DNA from: Sphingomonas jinjuensis
GTDB lineage: Bacteria; Pseudomonadota; Alphaproteobacteria; Sphingomonadales; Sphingomonadaceae
Length of the DNA: 64,000 bases
Direction: 5' to 3'
Assembly: GCF_014197105.1 (NCBI RefSeq)
Contig: NZ_JACIEV010000009.1
Coordinates: 1-64,000 of the forward strand
The notes below the pieces were generated by a model that was not told where the DNA came from, made no database searches, and was given only the letters and a program-made list of their open reading frames with translations. The position numbers and the translations under genes are program-made. This document shows, piece after piece, positions 18,458 through 63,772 of this stretch (its first letter is position 1; every line of letters starts with the position of its first letter).

Positions 18458-18468
18458 CTTCATCTCCG

Positions 18469-18571
18469 TTCCCCGGCGGAGGCCGGGGCCCAGTTCCGGA
18501 GCGGCATATGGTGATCGCCGCGCCTTTTTACATTGGCCTTCCCAAAGGGCCCCGGCCTCCGCCGGAGAACA
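18469..18571. repeat. Inverted pair of palindromic repeats (family D) between sucB and lpd
   Basis: CCGGCGGAGGCCGGGGCCC (18473-18491) and its exact reverse complement at 18547-18565 are separated by 55 bp. Each arm is itself nearly palindromic (CCCCGGC...GCCGGGG). The same doublet structure occurs at 37,475-37,538 and, enclosing a GIY-YIG gene, at 23,917-24,288. Confidence 0.85.
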
Positions 18572-23017: not shown

Positions 23018-23902
23018 TCAACCCTTCAGCACCTCGAGCAGGGTCGAACCCAGCTCCGACGGGCTCGCCGCCACCTTGATGCCGGCGGCTTCCATCGCCG
23101 CGATCTTGTCCTCGGCGCCGCCCTGGCCGCCCGACACGATCGCGCCGGCGTGGCCCATACGGCGGCCAGGAGGCGCCGTGCGGCCCGCGATGAAGCCGGC
23201 CATCGGCTTCCTGCGACCCTTCTTCGCCTCGTCGCGCAGGAACTGAGCGGCTTCCTCTTCGGCCGAGCCGCCGATCTCGCCGATCATGATGATGCTCTCG
23301 GTGGCATCGTCGGCCAGGAACAGCTCGAGCACGTCGATGAAATTGGTGCCGTTGACGGGATCGCCGCCGATGCCGACCGCGGTCGTCTGGCCAAGCCCGG
23401 CATTCGACGTCTGGAACACCGCTTCATAGGTCAGCGTACCCGAGCGCGAGACGACACCGACCGAGCCCTTCTTGAAGATGCTGCCCGGCATGATGCCGAT
23501 CTTGCACTCGCCCGGCGTCAGCACGCCCGGGCAGTTCGGGCCGATCAGCCGCGACTTGCTGCCCGACAGCGCGCGCTTGACGCGAACCATGTCGAGCACC
23601 GGAATGCCCTCGGTGATCGCAACGATCAGCGGCACCTCAGCGTCGATCGCCTCGAGAATCGAATCCGCGGCGAAGGGCGGCGGGACATAGATCACGCTGG
23701 CATTGGCGCCGGTCTTGCTCACCGCCTCGGCGACGGTGTCGTACACCGGCAGGTCGAGGTGGGTGGTGCCGCCCTTGCCGGGCGTGACGCCGCCGACCAT
23801 CTGCGTGCCGTACTCCAGCGCCGCCTTGGTGTGGAAGCTGCCGGTCTCGCCGGTCATGCCCTGGGTGATGACCTTGGTATTCCGGTCGACGAGGATGCTC
23901 AT
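23018..23902 (-). CDS. sucD: Succinyl-CoA ligase, alpha subunit
   Basis: A 294-aa subunit that binds CoA and carries the phosphohistidine, making ATP or GTP from succinyl-CoA. Features: [21 protein letters not shown] start, [31 protein letters not shown], and the active-site histidine segment [13 protein letters not shown]. Length is normal. The beta subunit gene sucC, usually directly upstream between mdh and sucD in alphaproteobacteria, is absent here; a GIY-YIG gene and repeats occupy the position. Confidence 0.97.
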
Positions 23903-23916
23903 TTCATCTCCTTGTT

Positions 23917-24288
23917 CCCCGGCGACGGCCGGGGCCCAGTTGGGAAGACAGTCATGGCAGCGCGATACGATCGTACAGGTCTTCCCAATCCGGGTTCAGC
24001 CCTTCGATCTCCCGCAACTTCCAGGCCCGCTTCCACTCCTTCATCTGCAGCTCGCGCTGCCGCGCTGACTTGATGCTGCCATGTGCCTCGTACCAGACCA
24101 GGGACTTGCAGCCGTATTTCTTCGTAAACCCGCCAACGACGCCGTTCCGATGCTCCCAGACGCGCTTCGCCAGATTGCTGGTCACGCCCAGATAGATCGT
24201 CCCATTCCGTCCGCTCGCCATGATGTAGACATAGCCGGACGTCATCATCGCGAACGCGCTTCCTTCTGGACCCCGGCCTTCGCCGGGG
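23917..24288. repeat. Inverted palindromes (family D) enclosing a GIY-YIG gene
   Basis: The left palindrome CCCCGGCGACGGCCGGGG (23917-23934) followed by CCCAG faces the right palindrome CCCCGGCCTTCGCCGGGG (24271-24288), preceded by CTGGA. In reverse complement the right copy matches the left with one mismatch in the palindrome, and the flanking CCAG also matches. The 372-bp unit contains one gene and looks like a long form of the doublets at 18,469 and 37,475. Confidence 0.75.
23952..24248 (-). CDS. Small GIY-YIG nuclease family protein
   Basis: A 98-aa single-domain GIY-YIG protein. The two signature strands are GYVYIMAS and GTIYLGVTS, followed by the catalytic-arginine helix [12 protein letters not shown]. 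The metal-site glutamate probably lies in [12 protein letters not shown]. It ends [17 protein letters not shown]. The fold is found in UvrC, homing endonucleases and many small orphan proteins; the role of this subgroup is not established. It sits between mdh and sucD inside a palindrome pair, which suggests it is a mobile or repeat-associated gene rather than a metabolic one. The start could be M1 or M2. Confidence 0.88.
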
Positions 24289-24294
24289 TGGTCA

Positions 24295-25266
<972 letters not shown>

Positions 25267-37474: not shown

Positions 37475-37538
37475 CCCCGGCGAAGGCCGGGGCCCGGTTG
37501 CGGGCCGTTCGTTGCTCGACCCCGGCCTTCGCCGAGTC
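37475..37538. repeat. Inverted pair of palindromic repeats (family D) between gcvPA and gcvPB
   Basis: CGGCGAAGGCCGGGG (37479-37493) and its perfect 15-bp reverse complement CCCCGGCCTTCGCCG (37520-37534) face each other across 26 bp. The palindrome is the same as that bounding the GIY-YIG gene and the sucB-lpd junction. Confidence 0.85.
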
Positions 37539-42841: not shown

Positions 42842-42947
42842 CCGTCATCCCGGCGAGCCGGGATCCATCGTTCGGCACGCGGCTCAGCAAGATCGCTAGA
42901 CGGTCGCTCGCGGCAGCATGGATCCCGGCTCGAGACCGGGATGACGG
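42842..42947. repeat. MITE-like inverted repeat (family B) between ispH and thrB
   Basis: The left arm CCGTCATCCCGGCGAGCCGG (continuing GATCCA) at 42842-42867 pairs with the right arm at 42919-42947, which ends CCGGGATGACGG, with small mismatches. About 105 bp, non-coding. A second copy of the same family with different inner sequence lies at 63,664-63,772. Confidence 0.85.
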
Positions 42948-63663: not shown

Positions 63664-63772
63664 CGTCATCCCGTCCTCGAGCCGGGATCCAGCTTGCCAC
63701 GGGCGGCTGACCTCAACCACCAGATCAGGCGCTTTCGGCACCCATGGATCCCGGCTCAAGGCCGGGATGACG
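63664..63772. repeat. MITE-like inverted repeat (family B)
   Basis: CGTCATCCCGTCCTCGAGCC (63664-63691, continued GGGATCCA) and the segment starting TGGATCCCGGCTC and ending GGGATGACG (63745-63772) form imperfect 28-bp arms. The ends match the 42,842-42,947 element; inner sequences differ. It separates convergent uvrB and the partial receptor. Confidence 0.8.

Follow-up and report, generated by a model that had tools for sequence, protein, structure and literature searches.

A GIY-YIG nuclease gene enclosed by inverted palindromes in Sphingomonas: a candidate REPIN-like system built on CGTC-type repeats

In a 64,000-nucleotide stretch of Sphingomonas jinjuensis DNA (hereafter the window), the gap between mdh and sucD is filled by a small GIY-YIG nuclease gene and the inverted palindromes that bound it. 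Relatives of this gene in many other genomes are likewise enclosed by palindromes of the CGTC REP type, genomes that carry the gene hold more of these repeats, and the sequence of the palindrome tracks the lineage of the protein. Our interpretation, drawn from sequence comparison, is that gene and palindromes probably form one system, in which a structure-selective nuclease would be dedicated to the CGTC-type REPs of its own lineage, much as RAYTs are to REPINs. Because so many related genes are enclosed in this way, the protein is a candidate enzyme partner for a widespread type of repeat that has been reported without one.

The element in its window and genome

A sequence-only reading of the window had described a gene for a 98-amino-acid GIY-YIG protein bounded by inverted palindromes, two shorter gene-less doublets of the same palindrome, and no tyrosine transposase; each of these observations was borne out. 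The motif CCCCGGCGAMGGCCGGGGYCCAG occurs exactly at 23917-23939 (+) and 24266-24288 (-), an arrangement found in 0 of 100 dinucleotide shuffles. When up to three mismatches are allowed, the window contains five matches against none in the 100 shuffles, the further three (18471-18493, 37475-37497 and 37515-37537) lying in the two gene-less doublets (Table 1); the second arm of the sucB-lpd doublet is at 18550-18567. The palindrome has a loop of 4 nt and a stem of 7-8 bp that does not start with AT, and the heads of its family are GTT or ACCA. One end of the element lies at the mdh stop and the other just before the apparent ribosome-binding site of sucD. The window also holds two canonical CGTC doublets, made of GTCATCCCG...GGGATCCA units (42844-42945 and 63665-63771), whose family differs from that of the GIY-YIG element.

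Table 1. Position of the GIY-YIG element, its parts, its neighbours and the related gene-less doublets in the window
Feature	Coordinates	Strand	Remark
Whole element: head, palindrome, tail, GIY-YIG gene, then tail, palindrome, head inverted	23914..24293	.	mdh stop to sucD ribosome-binding site
Left palindrome unit, head GTT, tail CCA (GTTCCCCGGCGACGGCCGGGGCCCA, then GTTGGGA)	23914..23938	+	
Right palindrome unit, inverted (GACCACCCCGGCGAAGGCCGGGGTCCA)	24267..24293	-	
98-aa GIY-YIG nuclease gene	23952..24248	-	ORF and Pfam domain
mdh, upstream neighbour of the GIY-YIG gene	24295..25257	-	name from own translation
sucD, downstream neighbour of the GIY-YIG gene	23018..23902	-	name from own translation
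Gene-less inverted doublet, same palindrome as the GIY-YIG element, sucB-lpd gap	18468..18571	.	
Gene-less inverted doublet, 63-bp class, same palindrome as the GIY-YIG element	37475..37538	.	

The protein matches the Pfam GIY-YIG family (PF01541) with an E value of 3.7e-14, exceeding the curated cut-off, and residues Y8, Y19, R29, H33, E66 and N85, which we take to be its nuclease residues (the Tyr, Tyr, Arg and Glu having a catalytic role), are invariant or nearly so in alignments of its relatives. The enzyme is presumably active as a nuclease, to judge from its sequence. An AlphaFold2 model (mean pLDDT 93.6) gave as best match in a fold search a UPF0213 structure (E 2.7e-4, TM 0.55), followed by weak matches to a second UPF0213 structure and to Slx1 and UvrC domains. 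Sequence profile and fold both point to the UPF0213 structures BH0048 (1zg2) and EF2693 (1ywl), of which only 1zg2 has E < 0.001 in the fold search; these are the solved structures closest to the protein by either measure, and their titles give either 'hypothetical' or just a target name. Among NCBIfam models none attained its cut-off, and the family libraries supplied no functional name. Slx1 and the N-terminal nuclease of UvrC share the GIY-YIG fold (fold-search E about 0.05 or worse). Both are larger repair enzymes, for which we know of no repeat flanks.

The palindrome is multicopy in the genome of the strain (3.85 Mb, 33 contigs), with 125+112 matches at up to two mismatches against 53+64 for a reversed-pattern control, and 29 exact copies among the matches listed. 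Once neighbouring arms were merged, the 21 listed loci included 16 head-outward inverted pairs, namely the gene element, 14 short doublets and one pair spanning 142 bp; two other adjacent pairs, one with inward heads and one in the same direction, have an arm with three mismatches each, and the rest are single arms. There are thus at least 14 gene-less short doublets, which span 63 (three), 81-82 (two) or 97-98 bp (nine) when measured on the 18-bp palindrome, with variable spacers. Three doublets fold well beyond shuffled sequences (folding z -5 to -11). A search of the whole genome for Y1_Tnp (RAYT-type) transposases gave no match at E <= 1e-5.

Four loci of this genome match the 98-aa protein. 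Two of them, the window gene (L001) and L003, stand inside inverted palindromes. Immediately before L002 lies a complete CGTC doublet, and nothing was detected behind it. L004, a distant match with 34% identity, has no enclosing pair and one weak unit 291 bp off. The copy at L003 1501-1779 (G000:C4:243222-243500) carries an in-frame TGA, and inverted CGTC palindromes still enclose it.

Enclosure and repeat load in other genomes

We examined 192 genomes of the window's class, taken as Alphaproteobacteria, in 57 of which a relative of the protein was found at E <= 1e-8 (up to 10 copies per genome). In a first look, the inverted match between the two flanks beat the best of 50 mononucleotide shuffles at 25 of 32 loci, and a direct match was stronger still at seven of those 25. 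Repeat units were then detected as a GTC-like head, a stem-loop and a CCA-like tail with one mismatch in all, so that variants of head or tail are missed. Mechanical ORFs of the same stretches served as controls, some of them neighbours of the gene that have one palindrome in common with it. Inverted CGTC-type REPs enclosed 33/108 gene copies within 150 bp, against 2/494 other ORFs and 0/226 short ORFs, and 29/109 genes within 100 bp against 0/515 control ORFs. Within 300 bp, head-outward units stood on both sides of 39/108 copies (upstream of 51, downstream of 53). The detector found no such double enclosure for the other 69/108, some of which have palindromes of other orientation or with variant tags and others none detected. 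Pairs with inward heads enclosed 10/108 copies against 1/494 control ORFs, and some copies may count in both orientations.

A search of named genomes, made with an alignment from a closer set of relatives, gave a similar picture: among the best 80 of 581 confirmed loci, 37/74 were enclosed within 150 bp against 2/315 control ORFs, and 40/74 within 250 bp. By taxon group, as assigned from the titles of records that are mostly metagenome-assembled, the latter figure for these best 80 of 581 is 15/24 in Alpha-, 5/11 in Beta-, 2/6 in Gamma- and 3/5 in Deltaproteobacteria; 2/3 in Omnitrophota, 2/2 in Nitrospirae, 2/2 in Calditrichota and 2/4 in Chloroflexi; 3/5 in Patescibacteria, 1/1 in Flavobacteriaceae and 3/5 in unassigned bacteria; and 0/3 in both Planctomycetes and other groups. 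Eleven of the best 80 of 581 bear the title of an isolate. Units flank the gene on both sides in four of them (Niveispirillum lacus, Sphingomonas sp. Leaf412, Erythrobacter colymbi and Caenimonas soli) and on a single side in two (Methylomonas sp. SURF-2 and Halopseudomonas pachastrellae); in five they do not (three Caulobacter, Roseibium and Tistlia). Most other enclosed loci listed have a GTC head, which the detector favours.

A plasmid collection contained 34 records with a relative, six of which were chosen by hand and read. The detector placed head-outward units on both sides in three of the six (Neisseria gonorrhoeae, Azospirillum lipoferum and Rhizobium sp. CIAT894), only upstream in the Sinorhizobium meliloti record, and nowhere in those of Novosphingobium aromaticivorans and Planktothrix; by eye, palindromic repeats are present on both sides in the last three species. 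The Azospirillum copy, located between sufB and sufC, is bordered on either side by a doublet, and the gonococcal copy is flanked by GTCATTCCCGCGCAGGCGGGAATC units that look like dRS3 repeats. This gonococcal relative (L371, 51% identity) sits amid dRS3-like repeats, and its record, filed as a plasmid, has the size of a chromosome. The relative on a Planktothrix agardhii plasmid (L376 1200-2070) has a restriction-modification gene on one side and DISARM drmA on the other; the GTCATTCTGAGTGAAACGAAGAATC repeats that surround it are of a type missed by the detector.

The idea that any small GIY-YIG gene will do was rejected: none of seven such genes from other subfamilies (L004, identical with L142; L143-L146, L155 and L156), one of them in the S. 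jinjuensis genome, had an enclosing pair.

Repeat load differs with the presence of the gene. We counted a generic CGTC pattern in the 192 genomes; the reversed control gave at most two matches per strand and genome, and as the pattern makes no demand on pairing, low counts may be due to chance. The 57 genomes with the gene hold a mean of 27.4 units (median 8) and the 135 without it a mean of 2.5 (median 0); at least 8 units are present in 31/57 against 9/135. There are exceptions on both sides, as these nine gene-less genomes hold up to 92 units, and in 16/57 genomes with the gene the generic pattern finds fewer than 3. The difference is significant in three of four genome-size classes (p < 0.001 below 4.5 Mb) and not among genomes of 4.5-7 Mb (8/15 against 4/16, p 0.15). 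The presence of Y1_Tnp shows no link with CGTC load across the 192 genomes (means 10.9 and 9.6, p 0.37). Within the genus (101 genomes, taken as Sphingomonas or close to it), an exact 16-mer of the family occurs at least 5 times in 33/42 genomes that have a relative at >=65% identity and in 13/59 others, identities being taken from the matches listed, best first. Here too exceptions go both ways: 46 units were counted in G244, which lacks a relative at E <= 1e-8, and a single unit in G217, which carries the gene.

The repeat-rich genomes G066, G072, G097 and G168 contain small GIY-YIG genes; those tested belong to another subfamily, and the genomes therefore remain exceptions. In the CGTC-rich G089, G078 and G179, the sole PF01541 match lies in a long open frame taken as UvrC; these genomes may have lost the gene or may use another partner.

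Palindrome sequence, site occupancy and doublet structure

The palindrome sequence tracks the protein lineage. Across 87 doubly flanked loci (87/95 kept after de-duplication), the left and right units of a locus are identical at 0.90 of 13 nt, and units of different loci at 0.65. Protein identity predicts palindrome similarity among pairs with less than 70% protein identity (r 0.44, reached in 0/999 permutations), a correlation that ignores the host tree. The cross-phylum subset stands apart from this limit: pairs from different phyla (39 loci, 537 pairs) give r 0.43 (0/1999 permutations), with phyla assigned from record titles and most records metagenome-assembled, so that misbinned contigs may inflate the value.

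Different lineages in one genome can also have different palindromes. In G231, for instance, CCCCGGCG at mdh-sucD stands beside CTCCTGCG at sucB-lpd, where the GIY-YIG genes are of different lineages, and none of the seven within-genome pairs listed below 70% protein identity (six distinct) reaches a palindrome similarity of 0.92. At 50-60% protein identity, palindrome similarity is 0.73 within a genome (four pairs) against 0.67 between genomes; at 60-70% it is 0.77 (three pairs) against 0.79, and the 12 within-genome pairs compared include repeats. Same-genome pairs are thus not less alike in palindrome at equal protein identity and sharing a genome adds little, which indicates, within these small numbers, that the palindrome follows the protein and not the host.

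The two gaps that carry copies of the window's palindrome, mdh-sucD and sucB-lpd, were compared between the window and 40 stretches from 39 genomes. At mdh-sucD (41 stretches), 19 have the gene, 15 a gene-less gap of 26-124 bp and seven other, longer sequence. Inspected by eye, all but one of the 19 genes carry the CCCCGGCG-type palindrome at either end, in most cases with tails like CCAGTTGG; the exception, L234, shows a different doublet at one of its ends. At sucB-lpd, the 33 readable stretches comprise 13 GIY-YIG genes, 18 gaps under 140 bp and two with other sequence. These 13 genes belong to other lineages, and most have palindromes of their own by eye; of the 18 short gaps, eight hold doublets of the family by eye, the window's included, and two measure 31 and 40 bp. 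Since mdh-sucD is found gapped or gene-filled, and sucB-lpd empty, doublet-filled or gene-filled, gene-less and gene-bearing forms share places.

Doublet structure was studied in two sister genomes, G281 and G259, over 400 kb each (L331-L350 and L351-L370). The 73 pairs of units less than 130 bp apart comprise 63 head-outward pairs, 10 inward and none in the same direction, and eight of the 10 inward pairs sit between two complete neighbouring doublets. The 63 doublets, mainly from four families, cluster at lengths of 47, 71-73 and 97-99 bp; two measure 86 bp. Length here steps by about 25 bp across palindrome families, and the S. jinjuensis genome has 63, 81-82 and 97-98 bp instead. One doublet of 98 bp directly follows a stop codon in one sister genome and is absent from the other (158 against 25 bp), and at two sites the doublets of the two species belong to different families (G281 180647 against G259 180560; G281 198702), as if one doublet had replaced the other. 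Across the 63 doublets, complementarity between the heads dwindles 5-6 bp beyond the stem and from there on is near chance. No clear direct repeat was seen at their edges, identity reaching at most 0.45 over 8 nt, and 0.57 over 2 nt in one family, by a comparison made without a formal null.

A predicted mechanism, its rivals and known systems

The sequence-only reading had gone further and proposed a candidate REPIN-like system with the gene as possible mobiliser. Its layout and its link between gene and repeats are strongly supported: copies elsewhere are flanked, doublets are not equally abundant in genomes without the gene, and relatives have empty sites in the form of gene-less short gaps at mdh-sucD. 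The role of mobiliser stands in part, because cleavage and movement are steps that we infer, because 69/108 copies are not doubly enclosed and 9/135 gene-less genomes have at least 8 units, because gene copies hardly multiply within a genome, and because causality may be reversed, with the gene homing into existing doublets.

The mechanism we propose is as follows. The 98-aa protein would be a structure-selective nuclease, with a UPF0213-like fold and Slx1 next nearest. When a doublet is exposed as a single strand, or is extruded into a hairpin or cruciform, its nuclease would recognise the cognate palindrome in its hairpin form and nick the palindrome base, between the head (GTC, GTT or CCA) and the CCAG tail. 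Host repair or replication would re-insert the doublet into intergenic DNA, by nick-primed copying or end capture. Short doublets would then be non-autonomous passengers amplified in trans, and the gene-bearing copy would rarely be duplicated, like RAYTs. GIY-YIG enzymes hydrolyse DNA without a covalent protein-DNA intermediate, which would leave re-insertion to the host, and the strand-transfer step of RAYTs would not apply. Re-insertion by host repair or replication is consistent with the lack of a clear target-site duplication. As to duplication of the gene, only 1/92 pairs of intact copies within one genome have at least 90% identity, and no palindrome was detected at this pair (L103/L109), so that no recent move of a palindrome-flanked gene is seen. 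With copies that hardly multiply within a genome, the gene is at most RAYT-like and not an ordinary IS.

GIY-YIG is a classical homing domain. Homing is the serious rival among the three readings that follow: CGTC doublets would spread by other means, and a free-standing GIY-YIG gene would cut, and insert in or next to, its cognate doublets. The role of the domain in homing appears in the abstract of the 2006 survey of the family (PMC1564403); gene-less doublets far outnumber gene copies, repeat-rich genomes without the gene exist, and a larger number of targets would also yield a correlation between gene and repeats. A homing gene is expected to lie inside its own recognition site and to convert empty sites; gapped and gene-filled states of the same sites are seen here. 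However, in L227, L242 and L373 the gene lies between two complete doublets and not inside one spacer, palindromes track the protein lineage, and the gene is rare per genome despite its many targets. We consider homing rather unlikely.

That another enzyme mobilises the palindromes, the nuclease gene being cargo that has gained their ends, appears quite improbable. IS elements are reported to target REPs (PMC1525189), and repeat-rich genomes without the gene would fit; but the enclosure recurs with locus-specific palindromes, Y1_Tnp is no predictor of repeat load, and the portions seen of the 2013 survey report no associated transposase, apart from a few associations that are fortuitous (PMC3733652). 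It is very improbable that the nuclease acts as a guard that resolves or removes repeat hairpins and is kept nearby by selection, with no spreading: the repair nucleases Slx1 and UvrC are the nearest solved folds after UPF0213, yet repeats are more and not fewer in gene-bearing genomes, and the palindromes frame the gene. Coincidence, by which short genes fall by chance between common intergenic repeats, has a negligible probability and was rejected, for although repeat-rich genomes hold many doublets, control ORFs contradict it (0/515 and 2/494 enclosed, and 2/315 at named loci, best 80 of 581), as do the 0/7 enclosed genes of other small GIY-YIG subfamilies. A hidden tyrosine transposase partner was also rejected, none being found in the S. 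jinjuensis genome and no link across the class.

Our preferred reading, a dedicated nuclease and its doublets, works like REPIN-RAYT and is nonetheless no member of it, as no tyrosine transposase was found in the S. jinjuensis genome and the heads do not have the GTAG tag. With REPINs, as described in passages of PMC3116915 and PMC3733652, the doublets share an inverted and intergenic arrangement, hairpins, a preferred spacing with variable spacers, and the presence of several families per genome; with RAYTs, whose copies within a genome are described as distinct (PMC3116915), the gene shares its nuclease-type product, its distinct and mostly unduplicated copies, and the flanking cognate palindromes. 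The enzyme differs, being a GIY-YIG nuclease and not an HuH tyrosine (Y1) transposase, as do the tags, with GTC, GTT or CCA (GTCA) heads and a CCA(G) tail here. MITEs of DDE insertion sequences resemble the short doublets in sharing ends with a gene-bearing copy; unlike them, the present element has no DDE transposase and no clear target-site duplication.

The closest known repeats are the CGTC REPs. Di Nocera et al. 2013 (PMC3733652, seen in part) define them as a superfamily, mostly in Alphaproteobacteria and present in five phyla, that includes neisserial dRS3 (CGTC-1) and rickettsial RPE-4 and RPE-6; they are apparently without a dedicated transposase, and their mover is left open. Their hallmarks are a palindrome with a tagged head, terminal CGTC (or TGTC or CCTC), a stem of 8-9 bp that begins with AT pairs, a loop of 4-5 nt, a CCA tail and dimers. 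The CCA tail and the dimers are found here, and the window family is a variant, with a GTT or CCA head and a stem of 7-8 bp lacking the initial AT pairs. Where the 2013 paper has no associated transposase, we propose a gene partner.

No link of GIY-YIG genes to REPs, REPINs or CGTC repeats was found in titles, abstracts and passages of a literature that includes few subscription journals and excludes bioRxiv, nor in the available parts of the 2006 GIY-YIG survey (PMC1564403), a 2025 REP survey (PMC12306157) and a paper on Bradyrhizobium REPs (PMC5082802). GIY-YIG and 'rayt' are separate rows of a gene table in PMC9465073, and 'rayt' is an author name in PMC10928387. We rate the GIY-YIG/palindrome pairing as a new kind of system, whose parts are known and whose function is predicted.

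More tentatively, and with somewhat less than even confidence, we suggest that such mobile repeats may form a class found across bacteria, in which a GIY-YIG nuclease on its own, with no transposase, spreads the doublets of its lineage. Such a nuclease could be the missing partner of CGTC REPs, perhaps of the dRS3 type too, since the gonococcal copy is flanked by repeats of dRS3 appearance, and the class would be a second, independently evolved counterpart of REPIN-RAYT. Our confidence in so wide a distribution is lowered by the cases outside Proteobacteria, which come mainly from uncultured genomes.

With a specific 98-aa candidate and its cognate substrates, the question of what moves CGTC REPs becomes directly testable. 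If our reading is true, small GIY-YIG proteins, a widespread family, would gain a probable function, and REPIN-like sequence populations would have arisen twice, with unrelated enzymes.
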